NCBI GenBank assembly: GCA_001443365.1
Contig: LDXL01000010.1
Location: forward strand, 1 to 52,828
Length of the DNA stretch: 52,828 bases
Direction of reading: 5' to 3'
Origin: Thaumarchaeota archaeon CSP1-1
GTDB taxonomy: Archaea; Thermoproteota; Nitrososphaeria; Nitrososphaerales; Nitrosopumilaceae
In this document: positions 31,092 to 47,108 of the stretch, piece by piece
How the letters are laid out: the number at the start of each line of letters is the position of its first letter
Position numbering within the stretch: the stretch's first letter is position 1
Made by a program: the position numbers and the translations under genes
Notes under the pieces: model-generated
The model's input: the letters and a program-made list of their open reading frames with translations, nothing else
Databases searched by the model: none
What the model was told of the DNA's origin: nothing

Positions 31092-32186
31092 GTGGCCGAA
31101 CAACAGGAATCAAAAGAAAAGCTTAGAACTGGGTTCACAACAGGAACAGCTGCTGCTGCTTCATCAAAGGCTGCAGTATTAGCGATATTAAATCAAAAAA
31201 ATATAGAATCTGTTGAAGTCACTCTTCCTAAAGGAAATTCAATTCCTATTAAAATTCTAAATTGTGAATTTAACGAAAGTAAAGCCAAGTGTTCGGTAAT
31301 AAAAGATGGTGGAGATGACCCCGACGTTACTCATGGTGCAGAAATCATTGTAGATGTTACTTTGACCCCAAATGTAAATCAAATTGAAATTGATGGAGGA
31401 AAAGGAGTAGGAATTGTAACAAAACCTGGTCTTGGATTAGAAATTAATAAACCAGCAATTAATCCAACGCCAAAAAAAATGATTATTGAAAACATAACTG
31501 AAGTGGCAAAACATATTCTTCTAAAGAATGGAATCAAGATTGTAATATCAGTACCAAAAGGAAAGGAATTAGCATTAAAGACGGATAATCCAAGACTGGG
31601 GATTTTGGGTGGTATTTCGATATTAGGTACTAGCGGTATAGTGATTCCATATTCAACTGCATCATTTGCTGCATCAATAAGACAGAATCTAGATGTAAGT
31701 TTAGCAATGGGCAACGATATTGTTGTACTAACAACTGGTGGACGAAGCGAAGAATTTGCAAAGAAGATAGTTGATTTACCAGAACATTCCTTTGTTCAAA
31801 TGGGAGATTTTGCTGGTTATACCATACAACAGTGTGCAAAAAAAGAAATCAGAAAAGCATACGTTGCAGGATTTATTGGAAAATTTGCAAAGATGGCAGC
31901 AGGAGTAAAACAAACTCATGTAAAGGGCTCCAAAGTCGATACAAATTTTCTTGCAGGCTTAGCTGAGAAATGCGGAGCAGAGGAAAAAACAATTGAAAAA
32001 ATACGAAACGCAAATACTGCCAGACACGTACAAGATATAGTTGTTGAAAACAAGGTAAAAGGATTTTTTGATGAAGTGTGTTTACAGGTCTACAAACAAA
32101 TGAGAAGTCATTCAGAAGAAAAGGTACCAATTGATGTGATACTTTTTGATTTTGATGGCAAGATTTTGGGAAGGCATCCTGTATAG
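31092..32186 (+). CDS. cbiD: Cobalt-precorrin-5B (C1)-methyltransferase CbiD
   Basis: A 364-residue protein starting at GTG. It has the CbiD hallmark RTGFTTGTAAAASSKAA near the N-terminus, DGGDDPDVTHGAEI, and GNDIVVLTTGGRSEEFA. It acts in the anaerobic (early-cobalt) corrin route after CbiG. It is first of a tight same-strand series cbiD-cbiG-cbiX-cbiC. Confidence 0.97.
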   Translation: MAEQQESKEKLRTGFTTGTAAAASSKAAVLAILNQKNIESVEVTLPKGNSIPIKILNCEFNESKAKCSVIKDGGDDPDVTHGAEIIVDVTLTPNVNQIEIDGGKGVGIVTKPGLGLEINKPAINPTPKKMIIENITEVAKHILLKNGIKIVISVPKGKELALKTDNPRLGILGGISILGTSGIVIPYSTASFAASIRQNLDVSLAMGNDIVVLTTGGRSEEFAKKIVDLPEHSFVQMGDFAGYTIQQCAKKEIRKAYVAGFIGKFAKMAAGVKQTHVKGSKVDTNFLAGLAEKCGAEEKTIEKIRNANTARHVQDIVVENKVKGFFDEVCLQVYKQMRSHSEEKVPIDVILFDFDGKILGRHPV

Positions 32187-32221
32187 TAAGGTATTTTATT
32201 AAATTAATAGGGATCGGATCC

Positions 32222-33280
32222 GTGGAAAAAGTATCAATTCTTGCTATCACAAAAAATGGAATAAAGATTGGATTAGAACTAAAAAAATCATCATCTTCAT
32301 GGAAAATTTATGCACCATCTAAATTTTCAGACAATAATCCACAAATAGTTTGGTATTCAGAGGCAACTTCTAACAAAATTGCAGAACTTTTCAAAACAAA
32401 TGATGCGCTTGTTTGTATTTTTTCATTAGGTGCGGTAATCAGACTAATATCACCATACATTAAAGACAAAAAAACTGATCCAGCAGTTTTGGTAATAGAT
32501 GACAAGGCAAAGTTTGTGATAAGTATTTTGTCTGGACATATTGGTGGTGCCAATCAGCTTACAGAAGAAATCGCAAGTAAACTTGGGAGTATTGCAGTTG
32601 TGACTACAGCAGCTGATGTAAATAAAACAATTGCAGTAGATCTCTTAGGAAAAGAGTTAGGTTGGAAGATAGATGATGACTCTACAGTTACTAAAGTTAG
32701 TGCTTTTATGGTAAATGAAGAAAAAATTGGAGTTTTTCAAGATGCTGGAAATAAAGATTGGTGGAATAAAAAATTGCCAATAAATGTAACGATATATTCT
32801 TCTATTGAAGAGTTGAAAAATTCACAATCAAAAGGATTTTTGATAATCACTGATAAAGAGGTTGAAGATCCAGAAATTTTAGAAAATTCAGTTGTTTATA
32901 GACCTCCGACTCTTGTAGTTGGAGTAGGTTTGCATGGGGATACTACAAAAGAAACTATCAGAGAAGGTTTGAATTTCTGTCTTAAAAAATACAAACTTAA
33001 TGCTAAATCAGTTGCAAAACTCGTTTCAATTAAGAAAAAACAGGACGTACAAGGACTAATCGATTTGGGAAAGGAAATGAATGTTCCAATTCAGTATTTT
33101 GAAAAAGAAGAATTGGCAACAATAGAAATACCAAATCCCTCTGAGACAGTTCAGGCGTTTGAAGGAACTCCAAGTGTTTCTGAAGCAGCTGCCATTAAAA
33201 GTTCTAATGGCAAGTTAATTGTTGAAAAACAAAAATTTCCTCCAAATTTGACAATTGCCATAGCGAGGATTCCAAATTGA
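32222..33280 (+). CDS. cbiG: Cobalt-precorrin-5A hydrolase CbiG
   Basis: A 352-residue protein starting at GTG. The N-terminal and central domains carry IFSLGAVIRLISPYIKDKKTDPAVLVIDD and SGHIGGANQLTEEIA; the C-terminal CobE/GbiG domain begins TLVVGVGLHGDTTKETI. It opens the delta-lactone ring of cobalt-precorrin-5A, releasing acetaldehyde. The stop overlaps the TTG start of cbiX by 4 nt, indicating coupling. Confidence 0.96.
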   Translation: MEKVSILAITKNGIKIGLELKKSSSSWKIYAPSKFSDNNPQIVWYSEATSNKIAELFKTNDALVCIFSLGAVIRLISPYIKDKKTDPAVLVIDDKAKFVISILSGHIGGANQLTEEIASKLGSIAVVTTAADVNKTIAVDLLGKELGWKIDDDSTVTKVSAFMVNEEKIGVFQDAGNKDWWNKKLPINVTIYSSIEELKNSQSKGFLIITDKEVEDPEILENSVVYRPPTLVVGVGLHGDTTKETIREGLNFCLKKYKLNAKSVAKLVSIKKKQDVQGLIDLGKEMNVPIQYFEKEELATIEIPNPSETVQAFEGTPSVSEAAAIKSSNGKLIVEKQKFPPNLTIAIARIPN

Positions 33281-34029
33281 AGCGAGGAGTTTTACTAATT
33301 GATAGAGGTAGTAGAGAAAAGGAAGCAAAAGAAGAACTAGATTTTATTTGTAAAAAGATAAAAGAAAAAGGAAATTATGTTTTTTCTGATTATTGTTTTT
33401 TAGAAGTATTACCTCCATTTATCGAAGAAGGAGTAAAAAAATGCCTAAAGCAGGATATTGAAGCACTAACAATAGTTCCTTACTTTTTGTATCCAGGAAA
33501 AAAGGTCAAAGCAGCAGTAAATGATGCAATAAAATTCCAGTCAGAAACTGATGTAAAATTTGTTATCTCAAAGCCAATGTCCATGCACAAAACCATGACA
33601 GAATTAGTAGAAAATAGAGTTACATCAGCACTTGAAAAAAATAACATATCTCTAGCTAAGAAAGAAGTTGATGTTTTGATTATTGGTCATGGGAGTAAAG
33701 ATCCAAATGCCCATCTTTCTATCAAATATGTGGTTGATGGTTTGACGAATACTTTTAGAAACATTAGCCATTGTTTTTTAGAAATTGAAGAGCCCAACAT
33801 TCAACAAGGAATAGAAAAATGTCAAAAAGATAATCCAGAGGTTTTGGTAGTTGTGTTTTATTTTTTACATAAGGGTGCCCATGTAAAGAGAGACATTTAC
33901 GAGGATCTTAATCCAGCAATTGAAAAATCTCACTTAAAGAAGGTGTTGACTACTGAACATATTGGAACTGATGAGAAAATGATTGATTTGATATTAGAAA
34001 GAGCGAGAGAGGTAGAACATGCAAACTGA
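33277..34029 (+). CDS. cbiX: Two-domain sirohydrochlorin cobaltochelatase CbiX, N-terminal half degenerate
   Basis: A 250-residue protein starting at TTG and made of two CbiX/SirB domains (about 1-125 and 130-250). In the C-terminal copy both metal-binding histidines are present: GHGS (H138) and GAHVKRD (H202). In the N-terminal copy the equivalents are DRGS (R10) and GKKV (K76), so that half has lost both histidines. CbiX inserts cobalt into sirohydrochlorin. A single domain with its histidine pair is known to be enough for catalysis in related chelatases, so the C-terminal half is probably the active one. It overlaps cbiG by 4 and cbiC by 11 nt. Confidence 0.9.
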   Translation: MKRGVLLIDRGSREKEAKEELDFICKKIKEKGNYVFSDYCFLEVLPPFIEEGVKKCLKQDIEALTIVPYFLYPGKKVKAAVNDAIKFQSETDVKFVISKPMSMHKTMTELVENRVTSALEKNNISLAKKEVDVLIIGHGSKDPNAHLSIKYVVDGLTNTFRNISHCFLEIEEPNIQQGIEKCQKDNPEVLVVVFYFLHKGAHVKRDIYEDLNPAIEKSHLKKVLTTEHIGTDEKMIDLILERAREVEHAN

Positions 34030-34657
34030 AAAAGGACAATCTATTGAAGATCAAAGCATGGAAATAATTGAAAGGGAGATTGGTTCTCATCAATATGATA
34101 AGTTAGAGTGGTCCATTGTTAGACGTGTCATCCATGCCACTGCAGATTTTGATTTTGCAAAGGATAATAAAATAATCTTTCACAAAGATGCAATCAAAAG
34201 TGGTATTAATGCTCTAAGAAATGGCTGTAATCTAATTGTAGATGTTAATGGTGTAATTGGTGGTTTAAACAAACAAAACTTGAATGAGTTTGGAAATAAT
34301 ACAATATGCAATATATCAAACCCAATAATTGTAGAAGAGGCAAAAAAATACAATAAAACAAGAGCCCAAACATCAATGAGAATGGCTGCATCAGAAATGA
34401 ATGGAGGAATTGTTGTAATTGGTAATGCACCTACAGCACTTTTAGAAGTAATTCAGATGATTCAGGAAGGGGTAACGACTCCAGCACTAATTATTGGAAT
34501 ACCTGTTGGTTTTGTATCATCTCCAGAATCAAAAGAGGCACTTCAGGCATTAGATGTACCATTTATCACAAATAAGGGCAGAAAAGGTGGCAGCCCGTGT
34601 GCATCTGCTATAGTTAATGCTCTTTTCAAGCTTTTACGAGAAAGTTCATCTTCTTGA
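34019..34657 (+). CDS. cbiC: Cobalt-precorrin-8 methylmutase (CbiC/CobH)
   Basis: A 212-residue protein with the CbiC catalytic histidine in RRVIHATADFDF (H39), the NGVIGGLNK loop, TRAQTSMRMAASEMNGGIVVIGNAPTALLEV and the GIPVGFVS segment. It moves the C11 methyl to C12, giving cobyrinate. It is the last of the cbiD-G-X-C run; its end overlaps the convergent cbiA by 12 bp. Confidence 0.97.
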   Translation: MQTEKGQSIEDQSMEIIEREIGSHQYDKLEWSIVRRVIHATADFDFAKDNKIIFHKDAIKSGINALRNGCNLIVDVNGVIGGLNKQNLNEFGNNTICNISNPIIVEEAKKYNKTRAQTSMRMAASEMNGGIVVIGNAPTALLEVIQMIQEGVTTPALIIGIPVGFVSSPESKEALQALDVPFITNKGRKGGSPCASAIVNALFKLLRESSSS

Positions 34658-36010
34658 AAACTTCAGACAATTTGTAACAAACTGTCTAGCATAATTTGAA
34701 CTATCAAAGTAAAGATGACCATATGATGCAAGAGTATTGAAGAGTATCAATCCATCTTTGGCGTTTTCAATTCCTTTTCCTATATCCAGAGTATAAGCAA
34801 ATTTAGAATCCTTTGGTAATAAATTAACCTCAGAAAAATGAAATTCATGTCCACGGAGTTTGTTAGAACGCGGTGAAATTATGCATACATTACGTATACT
34901 TCCCTGTGTATAATTTAGTGTCATTTTTTTTGTCATTTCAGTTTCTGCATCGATTAATCCAACCATTGGGAATTTCTTATTGTTATCCTTAATTGATTTT
35001 GTAAGATACATCAGACCACCACACTCTGCATAAATTGGAGTATTTTTTTCAGCTAAGTTTTTGATAGATTTGCGCATCTTCTGGTTTTTTCCTAAAGAAT
35101 TACCAAGTACTTCTGGGAATCCTCCGCCAATATACATTCCATCACAATCTGGTACTTTAGGGTCTGATATAGGACTAAAAAATTTAATTTTTGTACCTTC
35201 TCTTCTTAAGGCGTTAAGATTATCTTGGTAGTAAAAATTGAATGAACTATCTAACGCTACTGCAATTATGGTCTTTGGTTTTAGGTTAGGTTTATCATGA
35301 ATTTTATGCAGATTAGGGACATTCTTAGTAATTTTAATAATTTTTTCAATAGAAAGTGACTCAGAAATTTCCTTTGCAACTTTTTCTATTTTCTTGTTCA
35401 ATGATTCCTGTTCTGATATTGGAATCAATCCTAGGTGTCTTGAATCCAAAATAAGTTCAGAGTTTTTGGGAACTGAACCTAGAATTGGGATCTTCAATGG
35501 TTCTAGAGCTTTCCTACATAGTTCTTCGTGTTTTTTGCTTCCTATTTTGTTTAGAATAAATCCGACAATCCGAGAATTTTTATGAAATTTTGTAAATCCT
35601 AATGCAGTTGCAGCAATTGAGCGTGCAGTTTTACTGGCGTCTAATACTAAAATGGTTGGAGATTTCAGAAGAGTTGCAATATGATGAGTACTTGAATAAT
35701 TCGAGTCTCCTGAGAATCCATCATAATAACCCATTACTCCTTCAATAATAGAAATGCTAGATTTGGAATTTCTAACAAAACTTTTGATGAGTTCTTGTTT
35801 TCCCATTAACCAGACGTCCAAATTTATCGTATCATTTTTAGCAATGGCTGAAAGATAGCTTGGATCAATGTAATCAGGTCCGGCTTTGAAAGGTTGAACG
35901 GAATAACCTCTTTTTTTAATTCCATAAATTATTGCTGATGTAATCGATGTTTTTCCTACGCTACTAGTGGTTCCAGCAAGAACTAATCTAGGAATTTTCA
36001 ATTGCATCAT
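34646..36010 (-). CDS. cbiA: Cobyrinate a,c-diamide synthase (CbiA/CobB)
   Basis: A 454-residue protein. N-terminal dethiobiotin-synthetase-like ATPase domain with the P-loop GTTSSVGKTSI, and a C-terminal class I glutamine amidotransferase domain with the nucleophile in AECGGLMYLTKS and the histidine in SYGHLYFDS. It amidates the a and c side chains of cobyrinate using glutamine. It is convergent with cbiC and divergent from the adenosyltransferase gene, so the cobalamin block is split over two strands. Confidence 0.97.
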   Translation of the reverse strand: MMQLKIPRLVLAGTTSSVGKTSITSAIIYGIKKRGYSVQPFKAGPDYIDPSYLSAIAKNDTINLDVWLMGKQELIKSFVRNSKSSISIIEGVMGYYDGFSGDSNYSSTHHIATLLKSPTILVLDASKTARSIAATALGFTKFHKNSRIVGFILNKIGSKKHEELCRKALEPLKIPILGSVPKNSELILDSRHLGLIPISEQESLNKKIEKVAKEISESLSIEKIIKITKNVPNLHKIHDKPNLKPKTIIAVALDSSFNFYYQDNLNALRREGTKIKFFSPISDPKVPDCDGMYIGGGFPEVLGNSLGKNQKMRKSIKNLAEKNTPIYAECGGLMYLTKSIKDNNKKFPMVGLIDAETEMTKKMTLNYTQGSIRNVCIISPRSNKLRGHEFHFSEVNLLPKDSKFAYTLDIGKGIENAKDGLILFNTLASYGHLYFDSSNYARQFVTNCLKFSRR

Positions 36011-36021
36011 TTGATCACATT

Positions 36022-36031
36022 TTTATTTAAA
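36022..36031 (+). promoter_or_regulatory. TATA box before the corrinoid adenosyltransferase gene
   Basis: TTTATTTAAA would place the transcript start near 36050. This makes the in-frame ATGs at 36002 and 36035 unlikely starts and supports ATG 36101. Confidence 0.4.
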
Positions 36032-36100
36032 TGGATGTACGATAAGAGGAATTTTTTACGTACCAATCTTTTTAGTTGGCTAAAACATTTACCATTCGAA

Positions 36101-36634
36101 ATGGGAAAGGATGGTTTAGTCATAGTTTACACAGGAAATGGTAAAGGAAAAACAACTGCTGCTTTGGGGATGGCTTTGAGGGCAATAGGATACAACCACA
36201 AAATTTGTATGATTCAATTTATCAAAGGTTCGTGGCCTTATGGAGAAATGGAATCAGCAAAAAGACTAAAACCAGAATTAGAATGGGTAGTTTCTGGTAA
36301 GGGTTTTGTTGGTATTATCGATGACAAAAGTCCTCGTGAAGATCATGAAAAAATAGCTAAAGAAGCCATTCAAATAAGTAAGGAAAAAATTCAATCTGCA
36401 AAGTATGATATCGTAATTCTTGATGAAGTAAATTATGCAGTAAATCTTGGCTTGGTTAGCATCAAAGATGTTTTAGATTTGATTAATTCCAAACCAGCTA
36501 ATCTCAACCTTGTTCTAACTGGTAATCATGCTAAAAATGAGATTATTGAAGTGGCAGACCTAGTTACTGAGATGAAGGAGATAAAACATCCCTTCAAATC
36601 AGGAATAAAAGCAAAAAAAGGCATAGATTTCTAA
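36101..36634 (+). CDS. cobA: Corrinoid adenosyltransferase (CobA/CobO/BtuR type)
   Basis: A protein of 177 residues starting MGKDGLVIVYTGNGKGKTTAALG, with the P-loop almost at the N-terminus as in CobA/BtuR. It also has MIQFIKGSWPYGE and the Walker-B-like YDIVILDEVNYAVNLGLV. It transfers the adenosyl group of ATP to Co(I) corrinoids. Upstream in-frame ATGs at 36002 and 36035 add residues with no family similarity and lie at or before the TATA box. Confidence 0.93.
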   Translation: MGKDGLVIVYTGNGKGKTTAALGMALRAIGYNHKICMIQFIKGSWPYGEMESAKRLKPELEWVVSGKGFVGIIDDKSPREDHEKIAKEAIQISKEKIQSAKYDIVILDEVNYAVNLGLVSIKDVLDLINSKPANLNLVLTGNHAKNEIIEVADLVTEMKEIKHPFKSGIKAKKGIDF

Positions 36635-37656: not shown

Positions 37657-40335
37657 TTATTCAGCCTGAATGATGGTAATTTTTTCTATTATTGACATAT
37701 CAGGATCAATTGGTTGGTCCTGAGAATTTGTTTCTAGTGATGCAATTTTGTCTACTATTTCAAATCCAGAAATTACCTCTCCAAATACTGTGTATTTACC
37801 ATCCAACCAAGGGGCATTATCTAAAACAATAAAAAATTGAGATCCTGCACTGTTGATATCAGCCCCACGTGCCATTGAAACGATATATTTTTCATGTTTG
37901 ATATTACTAAATTCTGCATCAATTGAATATCCTGGTCCCCCTTGACCCCAAGTATCACGACTTCCTGAAATGGTGTTAGGATCTCCACCTTGAATTACAA
38001 AACCAGGCACTATCCTGTGGAAAATTGTTCCGTCATAGAATCCTGAATTAGCTAAATTTTTGAAGTTTTCTACAGTTTTTGGTGCAATATCATCTTTTAA
38101 TTCTATCCTGATGTCCCCAAAAGTAGTCACAATCACTGCAGTATCCTTACTATCGGTTAGCTGTGCAGAAATTGGTACTTCTTGAATGGGTACATAGTCT
38201 TTGTTTATTTCATAAATGAAGACTCCACTTATAGGTCCTGGAGTAGTTCGAGCAAAGCTAGGAGATGAATAAACCAATTTAAGCGGTCCATCGCCATCAG
38301 CTGGATATTTTATATCCTTAGTGTAAAGAGCTGTAAAACCAGGCTGATATGTTTCTGATTGTAAATTAGAAGCAAAATTAACATAGATTTCTGGAGAAAA
38401 TGGAAACATTTTACCTAACAAAGTATTCTGCCAAAAATAATCAGTTCCACTTATTCCATCTGCTTCAACATATCTAGAAACAGGTTCGCCTGCTATACGC
38501 ATAAACCACTGTTTTTTACTTTCATCTCCACCACCCTGAAGTAAATAGATTGGGTCTTCTCCTTCGTTTGTTATTAGTTGAGCTGCAACATATACTAAAA
38601 CATAATCAGCATCTAATTCTTGCAATAATTCCCAAGCTTGATCTGGAGAACTTAATAACATACGGGCAATTTTTTGTATTTGTAAAGTACTAATGGTTGC
38701 ATTATCAGCTAAAGATATTTTTTCTCCTAGTGTAGTAATCCAATAGCCATAATCCCACCAAGCAGCTACCACTGCGTCCTTGGGAGTATTATTTTTTAAC
38801 CATTCCATTGCTACAGGCCAATCGTCTGTTGCGATGTTGAAATTAGTTCCTCCGTTTAGTATAGTAGGTGGAGCTTTTATGCCAGTAATCCAACTTGCAG
38901 CACCAGGTAATGCTGAAGGAATTATAAGTAATGTTATTATTACAACAATGAAAGAAATTTTTGTAATAGTTTTAGGCGAATGGGTAACTTTTTTTAAATC
39001 ATAACTTTTCTTTTTAAGAATTTCCGCGGTAATTATGGATAATCCTATTGATGATAAAATGATTACCGAGATAGATGCATAAAGTTCTAATCTTACAAAA
39101 GCAGAGCTTATGTAAACTCCAATAAGACCAATGATGAGCGCAAATGTTGCCATATCGTTTTTTAAAATTATCACTTGTTCTTTGGAGTGGAATTTGGATC
39201 TAAAGATTAACCATATTCCAATTCCAGAAAATATCATAAGAATTGAGAGAAAATAGAATGATTGTGAGATGGTTAAGCTTGCATGTTCAGCGACAGAATC
39301 TACTAGGGGATCTTGAGTTGTCAGGAATGGATTAATTGCATTCAGATAACGAAAACTAGGTAGAGGAAGAAATTGGGCAGTGGCGTTTATCATAATGAAT
39401 GAGACGCCAGCCACAATGGTTCCTCCTAGTAAGGCAAGACCATTTCGTAATCTTTTTTCTTCTTTGCTCAATTTTTGAATCATAATACAAACTACAAGAA
39501 ATATGGTAGGACCAATTAATGCGAATCCTCCAATTCCTACAACAAAATCTATACCAGGTCTCTCAAATGCGAGTACAGTTACAATTACTGACGATACAAA
39601 AATTGGTATTGCCCAGAGCATAAATTTATGATCGTTTCGCATGAATGGTAATGCTAAGAAAAATAACCCTAATGGAAGGATAAAGAATTGAATACCTCCC
39701 CAAGAGGCAAGACCAAAACTTAGAAAAATGCCTCCGCCAATTAACTTTGCAATTGAGATTTTCCTATTTTGAGATCTTATTCCACTAAGAAATAAGTAGA
39801 TTCCAAGTAATCCATAAAAAAGTCCTAACGGTTCAGACTTGAACCAACCGATTGTTCCTCGAATTATCACAGGAACAGATAGGGAAAAGAATAATGCTGC
39901 AAAGAGTCCTGCTGTAGTTCCACCAATAACTCTCACTAGTGCAAAAATAATAATCGTAGTTAAGGAGCCAATTACAACTGGAAATAATATTGTGAAAGTA
40001 TAGAGATCATTTCCTGCTCCAAAGATTTGATAGAGTGTTGCAGCAGTTATGTGAAGCATTACTTGTGAATTGCTAGATATATCTCTTCCATATGGGTGCC
40101 AGCTTCTATCATCATGCCACTCAAAATAAGCAGTAAAGCCATTATCTACTAAGAATTGTGTTGCTCTATAGTTAAAAAATGGATCAAATTCATTTAATTC
40201 AAAACCATAATCCGCAGCTTGTGATCTTACCATAAATGACATTGAAAATGAAATTACTAAGATGCCAATTATTAGTAAATGTTGTAAGCGAAATTGAAAA
40301 TTTCCAACATTAAATAGCTGTAGATTTGAGATCAA
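37657..40335 (-). CDS. aglB: STT3/AglB oligosaccharyltransferase fused to a cyclophilin peptidyl-prolyl isomerase
   Basis: An 892-residue single frame. Residues 1-480 are a polytopic STT3 membrane domain with the metal/substrate motif around ELNEFDPFFNYRAT (47-59) and the SVAEH loop (347-351, TIXE-like). The soluble part has WWDYGYW at 526-532. From about 733 to 890 follows a complete cyclophilin domain: TTFGDIRIEL, the catalytic FHRIVPGFVIQGGD (772-785), SQFFIVL and APWLDGKYTVFGEV. STT3 moves lipid-linked glycans onto Asn of secreted proteins; its C-terminal domain faces the outside, so the isomerase should too. No frameshift or repeat marks the junction. The domain assignments are firm; the coupled function is inferred. 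Confidence 0.93.
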   Translation of the reverse strand: MISNLQLFNVGNFQFRLQHLLIIGILVISFSMSFMVRSQAADYGFELNEFDPFFNYRATQFLVDNGFTAYFEWHDDRSWHPYGRDISSNSQVMLHITAATLYQIFGAGNDLYTFTILFPVVIGSLTTIIIFALVRVIGGTTAGLFAALFFSLSVPVIIRGTIGWFKSEPLGLFYGLLGIYLFLSGIRSQNRKISIAKLIGGGIFLSFGLASWGGIQFFILPLGLFFLALPFMRNDHKFMLWAIPIFVSSVIVTVLAFERPGIDFVVGIGGFALIGPTIFLVVCIMIQKLSKEEKRLRNGLALLGGTIVAGVSFIMINATAQFLPLPSFRYLNAINPFLTTQDPLVDSVAEHASLTISQSFYFLSILMIFSGIGIWLIFRSKFHSKEQVIILKNDMATFALIIGLIGVYISSAFVRLELYASISVIILSSIGLSIITAEILKKKSYDLKKVTHSPKTITKISFIVVIITLLIIPSALPGAASWITGIKAPPTILNGGTNFNIATDDWPVAMEWLKNNTPKDAVVAAWWDYGYWITTLGEKISLADNATISTLQIQKIARMLLSSPDQAWELLQELDADYVLVYVAAQLITNEGEDPIYLLQGGGDESKKQWFMRIAGEPVSRYVEADGISGTDYFWQNTLLGKMFPFSPEIYVNFASNLQSETYQPGFTALYTKDIKYPADGDGPLKLVYSSPSFARTTPGPISGVFIYEINKDYVPIQEVPISAQLTDSKDTAVIVTTFGDIRIELKDDIAPKTVENFKNLANSGFYDGTIFHRIVPGFVIQGGDPNTISGSRDTWGQGGPGYSIDAEFSNIKHEKYIVSMARGADINSAGSQFFIVLDNAPWLDGKYTVFGEVISGFEIVDKIASLETNSQDQPIDPDMSIIEKITIIQAE

Positions 40336-43708: not shown

Positions 43709-44269
43709 TTAAAGAGAAACAAAAGCGTCTATGATAGTCTTACCATCAGTACTCATTTCTGGATGAAATTGTGTCCCAAATATGTTAAGTTCAATATGTT
43801 GAATCATTTCAAACATACAGTTTTTTGATTGAGCAATATCAATTAAAGAACTACCTAGTCGTGAAATTTCATAATTATGGCTCTCAAAAACCCTAATTCT
43901 TCCTCTGCAAAGGGGATTTCCCTTTAGTACAGAAATCTCTTGTTCACCTTTTTCAAGTACATTCATTTTCTTTATTGTACCTCCAAGAGTTAGTGCTAGT
44001 ATTTCAGCACCATAACATATCCCCAATAGATTTTTTTTTTCTGAAACTGCATGTTGAATAATTTTTGAATTTAAGGAATTCATTTCTTTGTTATTTTGAC
44101 GACGTCCTGAGAGAATGAATGAATTAAATTCTTTAATTTTAGAGAGGTTAACTTGATTGTGTTTAAGATTTGTAAATTTTATTTTTTTCTCGGACAGAAA
44201 GTCTATTAAATTTTTAGTGTATACTGAACCATTATCCACAACTAATAGTAATTTATTTGCCAATCTCAA
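43709..44269 (-). CDS. Class I glutamine amidotransferase (GMP-synthase glutaminase-like)
   Basis: A 186-residue stand-alone glutaminase domain: oxyanion/N-terminal VVDNGSVYTKNL, SFILSGRR, nucleophile elbow GICYGAE with C85, and FGTQFHPE with H169 and E171. It resembles the GuaA small subunit of archaea and TrpG, but the substrate-side partner (GuaB-type ATPPase or TrpE) is not adjacent, so the acceptor is uncertain. Its start overlaps the end of the UPF0182 gene by 17 nt on the same strand, indicating co-transcription. Confidence 0.88.
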   Translation of the reverse strand: MRLANKLLLVVDNGSVYTKNLIDFLSEKKIKFTNLKHNQVNLSKIKEFNSFILSGRRQNNKEMNSLNSKIIQHAVSEKKNLLGICYGAEILALTLGGTIKKMNVLEKGEQEISVLKGNPLCRGRIRVFESHNYEISRLGSSLIDIAQSKNCMFEMIQHIELNIFGTQFHPEMSTDGKTIIDAFVSL

Positions 44270-47108
44270 TCGAGATGTAATGCATCTCTGGAATACTTTC
44301 TACAAGTACTATTGTTCCAAAATTAATTACGTTGTCTTCTTCCCACATGAATACTCGTTCTGTTCGAGGTTTGACAAAGTCGTCAATAAATTTAGAGATT
44401 AACTTTTCAGTATCTTCAAGATCAGATTGTGTAAAGAATGCAATTTTTCCTTCGTTAAACGATAGAGGAATTTGAATATTAGATGGACTTAGGAGTTGAA
44501 GCTCTGCTTCTTCAATAATTGATTTAATTTTTTCCATTCTTGCTTCTCTATCAAATTCGAGATTAAACTCTCCATTAGTGGAAGTAGTAGAAGCCACGCC
44601 GGAGAGTTTTTGAAGATATGCTTCAAAGGCTTTTTGTTGGGTTTCACCTAAACCAACATAGTATTCACCTGTAAATGCAGCACCTACTGCAGCAATTGTA
44701 CCTAATTGAGCAACAACTCCACCTGCACCTGCAGTATAAACTGGAATAAAGTAAATATCTTGATCTCCTACTCGATATAATATATTGTCACCAATTCTAG
44801 GATTTCTCAATAAAGTTTTTAGCTGTGCAAAGTCTGGATCTCTATCAAGGGCTTCACCAACTGCAGTTGGGCCTATTAGTTTTGTTGTTGCATTCAATGG
44901 AACTTCATAAAATTGCATATACCCAAGATTGGTTAGGTCATTTTCTACTATCATATAGCCTGCCAAGTTTCTTCCCTGAGATCCTCTCAATTCAAGGGAT
45001 AACAAACCAATGAATTTTGGTTCTTCAAATCCAGGTGGTTTTGCTTCAATATAGTATGTTTCTAATCCACGAGGAATTTCATAGAATTCTTTTGCTTGAA
45101 TGAATGTTTCTACATCAGTAACATGGTAGATATTATACATCTCAGTTTTCCAATTAAATAATTCAACTGGGTACCGAATCTGTTCTTCAAGCCAAGGAGG
45201 AATTTCAATAAATTGGTCTTCGTATTGATTAGCAAACATTTCACTAAAGAAATCATCACCAGTTTTAATTAATTGAATAGAACCATCATAGGTATCTATC
45301 AATCCATATCCAACTAATCTAAGATATGGATTTCCAACTGACCAAGGAACATCATGAGTATCAAAACCAACTATTAACGGAACCAACCAATATGTATTTG
45401 TACCATCAGTTACTGGTAAAGAATCCAACTCCTTTCCAAACAAATTATACAGAAAATAAGGATAGAGTATTTCCATTCGCTGTTGAATATCCTTGTATCG
45501 CATTATGTGAACTGGTTCAGCAGGAAATGACAAAAGGAAGTTTGGTTCAAAAATCCAGCTAGTTGGGGGGGTTAGGGTTAAACCTCCTGTACCGCTATAG
45601 AATGCATTATTTAATTCAGCACTAACATCTCCTCTATTCACAGGATATGTAGACCAGGTTTCTGCTAATAATCCTCCTTCACCATAATAGATAGATCTTT
45701 GTTTGAAGAACTTAGCACTATCAATAATATTGCCATCAGTTGCACCTAATGTAAGAAGACCGTTTGGAACATATGTATAAACAAGATGTTCGTTGTACCA
45801 TCGATTTTCTGAACTTACTGATGGAGGTAGAATTGGTTTCATGGATGCAGTCCAATAAAGAGTATTGTTGAACCTTAAGATGTCATTGTCCTCAAAATCA
45901 ACATAAGGTATCAAACCAATTTCAGGTTTTAATTTTGCAAATGCGGCGTCCCAATCCCAAACTCTTATAACATTTAGCACGTCTGCGTTTTGATTAACAT
46001 AGTTTTTGATGTTATTTGGAGATACTGATTGTAACTGAACATTATGTGTATTTTCTTGAACTTTGTATAGCTCTCCTAGGTATCTATTTACTCCTATTTG
46101 TTGGGCAGTATAAGGTCCAAGAAATTCTAGCTTTCTAGCATCTGCTATGCTATTATTTACTGACATTATAGCTCCAACTATGATAGCGATTGCAATTATT
46201 GTTAATACTCGAATGTAGATATCTCGCTTGATTGGGTGAGTAAGTATTTTTGCTCGTATCCTATCTAGGAATGAAAATGTAATTAGTGCAAACCCTGCTA
46301 CAAAGGTTCCTCCAATTACATATCGGGTATTGTAATCTATCTGGTCTGTAAAGAACATGCTAAAAGCAGCCCATAAAACTCCAATTCCGATTATTCCTTC
46401 TAAGGTTGATATGTAATTAAGAAATCGTGGTTTACCTTCTGATGAATCTTGAATATAGGAAGTTACAACTCCAATAATAGAGTGTAATCCAACGTACAAA
46501 ACTAGACGAAGTCCTATAGCACCAAGAATTGGTGGTATTAAAATAATCAGAGCAGGTATCATTGGCACTACATTATCGAATGCATAAGAGGTATCAGTAG
46601 GTGGGGTTAAGAATGGTAACTGAAATAATGTTGGTAATGTATCAATCCCAAGATAATTTCCATCAATAACAGATATTGTTGCAAATCCAAACATTACGTT
46701 AGTAAAGAAGGCGCCAAAAAGAAGAACTTTAGTGATTTGCCAGATAACAAAACTTGGAATACTTAATTTGTAATCTCTGAAACTTGTAATGTTTCTAGTA
46801 ACTGGATCATTTGTTCCACGATTAAGAAATGTTATGGCAGAACTGAGGCCGTACCAAAAAATTGAAGATCTTTTTAGAATATTTACTCGAATTAAAGCTA
46901 CTGCAGAAAGAACTACGGCAGAAACTACGCCGTAAAAAAGAGGTTTAGTAAATTTTTCCCCAAATTCACTAATATTCATTGATATTATAATTCCTTGATT
47001 ACCCACAATTGCAAAAATTATTAGTCCAATTGCTACTACAATTCCTATTCTGATGTATTTTCCAGCATCAGATGGAGATGCACTTTCCTGTTTTGGCTTA
47101 CTATACAA
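44253..47108 (-). CDS. UPF0182 (COG1615) large membrane protein
   Basis: A 951-residue protein. The N-terminal third has about seven membrane helices; the rest is a large extracytoplasmic domain. The UPF0182 fingerprint is clear: YPVNRGDVSAELNNAFYSG-like, FLLSFPAEPVHIMRY, IRYPVELFNWKTEMYNIYHVTDVETF, and a C-terminal part with LIGPTAVGEALDRDPDFAQ and YFIPVYTAGAG. The family is widespread in cyanobacteria, actinobacteria and firmicutes and has no known function. It is followed by, and overlaps, a glutamine amidotransferase gene. Confidence 0.9.
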   Translation of the reverse strand: MYSKPKQESASPSDAGKYIRIGIVVAIGLIIFAIVGNQGIIISMNISEFGEKFTKPLFYGVVSAVVLSAVALIRVNILKRSSIFWYGLSSAITFLNRGTNDPVTRNITSFRDYKLSIPSFVIWQITKVLLFGAFFTNVMFGFATISVIDGNYLGIDTLPTLFQLPFLTPPTDTSYAFDNVVPMIPALIILIPPILGAIGLRLVLYVGLHSIIGVVTSYIQDSSEGKPRFLNYISTLEGIIGIGVLWAAFSMFFTDQIDYNTRYVIGGTFVAGFALITFSFLDRIRAKILTHPIKRDIYIRVLTIIAIAIIVGAIMSVNNSIADARKLEFLGPYTAQQIGVNRYLGELYKVQENTHNVQLQSVSPNNIKNYVNQNADVLNVIRVWDWDAAFAKLKPEIGLIPYVDFEDNDILRFNNTLYWTASMKPILPPSVSSENRWYNEHLVYTYVPNGLLTLGATDGNIIDSAKFFKQRSIYYGEGGLLAETWSTYPVNRGDVSAELNNAFYSGTGGLTLTPPTSWIFEPNFLLSFPAEPVHIMRYKDIQQRMEILYPYFLYNLFGKELDSLPVTDGTNTYWLVPLIVGFDTHDVPWSVGNPYLRLVGYGLIDTYDGSIQLIKTGDDFFSEMFANQYEDQFIEIPPWLEEQIRYPVELFNWKTEMYNIYHVTDVETFIQAKEFYEIPRGLETYYIEAKPPGFEEPKFIGLLSLELRGSQGRNLAGYMIVENDLTNLGYMQFYEVPLNATTKLIGPTAVGEALDRDPDFAQLKTLLRNPRIGDNILYRVGDQDIYFIPVYTAGAGGVVAQLGTIAAVGAAFTGEYYVGLGETQQKAFEAYLQKLSGVASTTSTNGEFNLEFDREARMEKIKSIIEEAELQLLSPSNIQIPLSFNEGKIAFFTQSDLEDTEKLISKFIDDFVKPRTERVFMWEEDNVINFGTIVLVESIPEMHYISIEIGK

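Follow-up and report, generated by a model that had tools for sequence, protein, structure and literature searches.

An oligosaccharyltransferase STT3/AglB joined in one reading frame to a cyclophilin domain in ammonia-oxidising archaea

The window, which is the whole stretch of 52,828 nucleotides analysed here, carries on its minus strand a frame that runs from a TTG at 40335 to a TAA at 37659-37657, 892 codons with no internal stop. A TGA stands in frame immediately before the TTG, and no ATG occurs in this frame near the 5′ end. Two Pfam families match the translation: STT3 (PF02516) at residues 42-426 (E 6e-25; 88.9 bits vs a gathering score of 24.5) and cyclophilin (PF00160) at residues 735-882 (E 4.5e-49; 167.2 bits vs 21.7). 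The cyclophilin match spans profile positions 4-154 of 159, a complete domain. Among sequences of solved structures, the STT3 part is nearest to human STT3A (E 2.5e-56, residues 21-585) and the cyclophilin part to spliceosomal-type cyclophilins. The features are as follows.

37657..40335, minus strand: whole fusion ORF, STT3/AglB oligosaccharyltransferase (OST) plus cyclophilin, 892 codons, TTG start (Pfam and full-length homologues)
38911..40287, minus strand: STT3 membrane part, residues about 17-475, 13 predicted transmembrane helices (hydropathy, positive-inside count, AlphaFold2 helices, Pfam)
40180..40194, minus strand: first acidic motif NEFDP, with D51, the metal/catalytic Asp of STT3 (alignment to human STT3A)
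39832..39840, minus strand: second acidic motif KSE, residues 166-168, with Lys at the human STT3A Asp position (alignments)
39283..39297, minus strand: SVAEH loop motif, residues 347-351 (alignment)
38188..38898, minus strand: STT3 C-terminal catalytic domain, residues about 480-716, predicted outside the cell (Pfam, AlphaFold2, Foldseek, hydropathy)
38746..38760, minus strand: WWDYG motif, residues 526-530 (invariant in 74 sequences)
38143..38187, minus strand: flexible linker, residues about 717-731, about 15-63 residues long in relatives (pLDDT, linker table, dN/dS)
37669..38142, minus strand: cyclophilin domain (PF00160), residues 732-889 (Pfam, AlphaFold2, Foldseek)
37981..38022, minus strand: cyclophilin active-site motif FHRIVPGFVIQGGD, with R774, F779 and Q782 equivalent to R55, F60 and Q63 of CypA (alignment)
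37831..37842, minus strand: cyclophilin SQFF motif, with F835 equivalent to CypA F113 (alignment)
37807..37809, minus strand: W843, equivalent to CypA W121 (alignment)

A 158-residue cyclophilin thus runs on in frame from a 718-residue STT3, and on the sequence such a junction cannot be chance. The sequence-only reading of this DNA had described the 892-codon frame joining the two domains; the frame is real, and we add its strand. The motif positions given there are also right (SVAEH 347-351, WWDYG 526-530, FHRIVPGFVIQGGD 772-785, SQFF 832-835, and W843). The source genome (1.36 Mb, 98% complete) has one STT3 copy, the fusion itself, and two further cyclophilins, both away from the fusion ORF; one of them is a 178-aa protein with no obvious export signal. 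As for the surroundings, an unrelated cobalamin-biosynthesis-like gene cluster (CbiD, CbiG, CbiX, CbiC, CbiA, and CobA-type by eye) adjoins the fusion at 31092-36634 of the window, and a 951-aa polytopic UPF0182 protein of unknown function is encoded at 44253-47108.

Two genes could in principle have been joined by misassembly or by a missed stop, and two MAG copies of the fusion (L022 and L068) are indeed split by a frameshift near the cyclophilin, most likely through sequencing errors. The fused architecture is, however, shared by dozens of independent archaeal assemblies, closed genomes and one RefSeq strain record (L065) included. Of 400 genomes of the class searched in six frames, many contain the full-length fused frame, several of these being single-contig genomes, and in a scan of GTDB representatives it appeared under the record names Nitrosotalea, Nitrosotenuis, Nitrososphaera, Nitrosocosmicus, and Nitrosopumilus sp. 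b1. These full-length homologues from independent assemblies are 45-78% identical to the fusion ORF. Coding constraint holds on both sides of the junction: across 11 pairs, dN/dS ranges over 0.04-0.17 in STT3 and 0.04-0.23 in the cyclophilin, with mostly higher values for the linker, up to 0.9. Both domains are under purifying selection, and the linker evolves fast. The many independent full-length copies rule out an assembly join at the junction, and we give an artefact of either kind next to no chance. One fused pair, L007 and L065, shows a synonymous divergence of 1.06 in STT3 and 0.21 in the cyclophilin, a contrast that suggests recent recombination limited to the C-terminal domain.

From a collection of 168 STT3 proteins we derived a tree of 121 rows x 707 columns, restricted to the STT3 part and rooted on the unfused outside groups. 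It holds 97 ammonia-oxidiser rows, 54 fused and 43 unfused, and 24 rows from other families of the class, fused in 0/24; the tree position of these 24 suggests that they are not ammonia oxidisers. On this tree the fused/unfused label requires 7 state changes, vs 39.9 in shuffles. The sequence-only reading had proposed mapping the fusion over all archaeal AglB proteins on a species tree. Our mapping covers genomes of the class and the phylum, and within that scope parsimony on the rooted STT3 tree supports a single gain at the ammonia-oxidiser base, with several losses afterwards. Families f3 and f5 and genus g31 of f2, which branch early among the ammonia oxidisers, have the fused form, and it extends through the Nitrososphaeraceae, the Nitrosotalea-, Nitrosotenuis-, and Nitrosocosmicus-like lineages, and the source organism's own genus. 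Losses are seen in a large clade of Nitrosopumilus and Nitrosarchaeum, in Cenarchaeum and related rows, in two rows of a genus that we take to be Nitrosopelagicus, in L057, and in three Nitrososphaeraceae rows; nearly all Nitrosopumilus, Nitrosarchaeum, and Cenarchaeum are thereby unfused. Support is weak for some of the middle branches, and L019, a fused row, stands among unfused ones; the number of losses is approximate, and the starred branches force at least 4 changes. Among the matches listed from 250 genomes of the phylum, none was a fusion outside the ammonia oxidisers. On the genomes covered, the fusion is characteristic of ammonia-oxidising archaea and, by parsimony, was lost secondarily in most marine members.

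Two observations from the same survey concern the records themselves. One STT3 that is Nitrosarchaeum-like (L062) comes from a record titled Chitinophagaceae bacterium, a binned contaminant contig. No STT3 was found with PF02516 in genomes G067, G077, G080, G098, G163, and G360 (f2 g23, which we assume may be Nitrosocaldus), nor in G123, G146, G289 (g15), G097, G229, and G153. Several of these are >95% complete, and AglB N-glycosylation seems to be absent from them.

How the unfused proteins end bears on how the domain was lost. All of them share the same junction: the unfused STT3 finishes directly behind its last strand (...FVYEINKDYIPxN-stop), at the very point where a linker would begin. 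Cyclophilin domains searched with tblastn around the unfused STT3 genes revealed no cyclophilin remnant beside them, the best match being 46 residues long at E 0.02. With the unfused proteins ending at the linker start and no remnant following, the loss looks like a truncation and not like one gene splitting into two. A stop and start between two separate genes in close relatives, which would have spoken against a true fusion, did not turn up; the relatives without the fused domain do not have it as an adjacent separate gene either, and that arrangement is ruled out by the same search. Three unfused proteins (L121, L122, and L229), and probably L148, carry at the linker position a long low-complexity tail rich in Ser/Thr/Pro or in acidic residues, probably a relic of the lost fusion's linker.

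The STT3 part has the active-site anatomy of its family. D51 of the first acidic motif and E350, the Glu of SVAEH, are invariant in the aligned STT3 sequences, and conservation of the first acidic motif, SV[AS]EH, and WWDYG is the same in fused and unfused proteins. The idea that unfused STT3 proteins had lost their catalytic motifs is therefore ruled out. The second acidic motif is different: Asp-Asn-Glu of human STT3A becomes Lys-Ser-Glu in every ammonia oxidiser examined (87/87 in one count) and in their close relatives, so that the fusion STT3 has no DxD/DxE second motif with a metal-binding Asp. The Asp replaced by Lys is a metal ligand in solved OSTs. Both the rows that we presume to be Nitrosopumilus maritimus and Nitrososphaera viennensis carry KSE. 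Because N. maritimus has KSE yet is N-glycosylated (PMC11153153), KSE is a lineage variant of the second motif and no argument against OST function or membership. On these alignments, a second DxD/DxE motif is common but not universal in AglB/STT3. Glycan transfer to N-X-S/T is documented in N. viennensis at the level of the organism and not with purified enzyme (PMC12153357).

Hydropathy gives 13 helices in the STT3 membrane part. Lys and Arg number 23 in about 110 residues of the predicted inside loops and 9 in about 170 residues of the outside loops before the C-terminal domain. Such a topology, with thirteen helices and Lys/Arg-rich inner loops, has the N-terminus on the inner side and all residues beyond 479 on the outer side. 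The STT3 C-terminal domain generally lies outside the cell, where glycan is transferred to the N-X-S/T of chains leaving the translocon. An AlphaFold2 prediction of the fusion (74 homologues) has a mean pLDDT of 90 and a pTM of 0.79; both domains are mostly above 90, and residues 720-728 fall below 50, a disordered linker. The proposal that the cyclophilin sits outside the cell, next to the OST active site, fits the helix count, the positive-inside pattern, and this confident model, and on these grounds an extracellular location is very probable. From the model we claim tethering only, with no fixed position of the cyclophilin relative to STT3. In a Foldseek search the top match is STT3A of human OST-A, followed by further STT3 proteins of human and yeast, A. 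fulgidus AglB and PglB, and then PPIL-type cyclophilins, with an rmsd of 1.2-2 Å for most cyclophilin matches.

The cyclophilin part has equivalents of CypA Arg55, Phe60, Gln63, Ala101, Phe113, and Leu122 (R774, F779, Q782, A822, F835, and L844 by what is our own mapping of CypA numbering), and these six positions are identical in 52-54 of the 54 fused domains (R, F, Q, A, and L in 53-54). The H126 position is Tyr in the fused domains. Both domains look catalytically complete, as had been claimed from the motifs, and isomerase activity can be predicted for the cyclophilin with good reason. The domain could instead be a binding or adaptor module that holds chains or recruits partners at the translocon and is not an isomerase. 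In favour of such a role, the W121 position is not conserved, 20 of the 54 fused domains having Trp there and 24 having Phe, and human FKBP11 at OST-A has a buried catalytic site and is a proposed adaptor (PMC12804085). Yet Phe at this position is also common in free cyclophilins of the same set (36/43), and near invariance of the Arg, Phe, Gln, and Leu in the 54 fused domains is unexpected for a pure adaptor. We consider this explanation improbable.

The cyclophilin tree, built on 164 columns, is poorly resolved. A single clade of fused domains with nested free Nitrosocosmicus copies was not rejected in an AU test (p-AU 0.53), a result that allows one origin of the fused cyclophilin and does not prove it; 164 columns are too few to decide whether the fused domain derives from one particular free family. 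In Nitrosocosmicus-like genomes (G099, G126, and G092), three separate proteins (L172, L173, and L191) have a cyclophilin domain whose place in the tree is within the fused ones, likely a copy of the fused domain that was transferred to a different surface protein. A different free cyclophilin, L003 (550-2094), is an exported 514-aa protein with a PsbP-like domain and a C-terminal membrane helix, found in the source genome and in most Nitrosopumilaceae. Since Nitrosopumilaceae, fused or unfused alike, carry a separate exported cyclophilin, the fused copy may be redundant in this family. Among the Nitrososphaera-type genomes that we examined, the sole other cyclophilin found (L174-L176) has no obvious export signal, so the fused copy may be their only surface cyclophilin.

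We propose that the AglB/STT3-tethered cyclophilin is an accessory folding factor at the site of glycosylation and exit, acting on exported chains, and put the probability of this at about 0.55. The single OST of an ammonia-oxidising archaeon would hold a cyclophilin-type prolyl isomerase on its outward C-terminus by a flexible linker. STT3 would move a lipid-linked glycan onto the N-X-S/T sequons of chains emerging outside the membrane, and the cyclophilin, present at high local concentration, would through its tether be the first to meet those same chains and would isomerise their prolyl bonds or hold segments while they fold. That it acts on the OST's own acceptor chains, and that it is coupled directly to glycan transfer, we only infer; the sequence-only reading had suggested such a coupling for newly exported chains, and S-layer proteins, its example, are possible substrates.

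The physiology of three organisms bears on this coupling. The presumed N. viennensis (G131) carries the fused form; N. piranensis has an unfused STT3, as does the row that we take to be N. maritimus. N-glycosylation of the S-layer protein and multicopper oxidases is reported for N. viennensis, with AglB detected in the proteome, and in N. piranensis N-glycosylation was not seen and AglB was lower (PMC12153357). N. maritimus has 17 N-glycans per S-layer subunit (PMC11153153). A rule by which presence of the domain means N-glycosylation, suggested by the first two organisms, is ruled out by the unfused and heavily glycosylated N. maritimus. Because this organism still N-glycosylates its S-layer, glycan transfer can proceed without the fused cyclophilin; the domain is accessory and any coupling not essential.

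Other points count against an accessory folding factor at the glycosylation site. The domain was lost several times with STT3 left in place, and the linker, which is long, variable, and disordered, also suits STT3 as a plain membrane anchor. STT3 might then serve as the anchor only, and the cyclophilin would be a general surface folding enzyme with no mechanistic tie to glycosylation, the fusion replacing the own-helix anchor of membrane-anchored cyclophilins in related archaea. Indeed, non-ammonia-oxidising relatives have separate cyclophilins with one N-terminal membrane helix (e.g., L177, L178, and L187), and the Nitrosopumilaceae keep L003 as another exported cyclophilin. The fusion partner, however, is the one membrane enzyme that acts on emerging chains, and it is kept in both main ammonia-oxidiser families. 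We think this explanation fairly unlikely. A stronger form of our folding-factor reading is a covalent machine for glycosylation plus folding: proline isomerisation beside the OST active site would tune sequon choice and the folding of S-layer and multicopper-oxidase proteins, and marine lineages would have dropped the domain as their S-layer or habitat changed. We offer this as a tentative possibility.

Whether the N-glycosylation of exported proteins is physically tied to their folding has long been asked, with work in eukaryotes on the multi-subunit OST and accessory factors of the translocon. Here one polypeptide holds both functions in abundant archaea of the nitrogen cycle. Because the fusion was kept in both main families and lost several times, fused and unfused orthologues (about 60% identity) are directly comparable, and the unfused ones are natural knock-outs. 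For annotators, the fusion explains why proteins of 890-980 aa match both families. Automatic database annotations surely carry both domain matches. In the open-access papers searched we found no description of an STT3-cyclophilin fusion. A 2021 survey of archaeal PPIases counts thaumarchaeal cyclophilins, gives the multidomain ones an N-terminal isomerase domain, and leaves STT3 unmentioned (PMC8530231), and the text of a 2024 survey of archaeal fusions does not mention this one (PMC11237513). As far as could be searched in the open-access literature, this AglB domain architecture was undescribed before.

Compared with archaeal AglB and eukaryotic STT3 (A. fulgidus AglB 7e9s; human STT3A 6s7o and 9n9j), the fusion shares the fold of the membrane part and of the C-terminal domain, WWDYG, SVAEH, and the first DxD motif; unlike them, it adds a C-terminal cyclophilin and has KSE rather than DxE as its second acidic motif. 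By Foldseek its STT3 is nearer to eukaryotic STT3A than to A. fulgidus AglB. With single-domain cyclophilins (PPIL1/ppi1 3jb9_d, bacterial PpiA/PpiB; PF00160) it has in common a complete domain, the catalytic residues, and the fold, but its domain is tethered to an OST and predicted to lie outside the cell. The cyclophilin-PsbP-like L003 is likewise a surface cyclophilin of the same organisms, but is unattached to STT3 and falls in a separate clade of the cyclophilin tree. Yeast Ost3p/Ost6p (7oci contains Ost6p) also function as a folding-type domain, thioredoxin-like, within a glycosylation machine; they are separate subunits of another enzyme class, with no sequence relation. The closest analogue is human FKBP11 at the OST-A/SEC61 translocon (9n9j, PMC12804085), a prolyl-isomerase-type protein beside STT3 at the translocon exit. 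In contrast to the fused domain, FKBP11 belongs to the FKBP family, and is a separate polypeptide recruited in trans; in its known structure CCDC134 buries the active site. An isomerase role at this translocon has been argued against (PMC12804085), and the burial of the FKBP11 site calls for caution in deducing isomerase action from proximity. The fused domain is a cyclophilin and does not have the FKBP fold, and its likeness to FKBP11 is one of arrangement, not of family.
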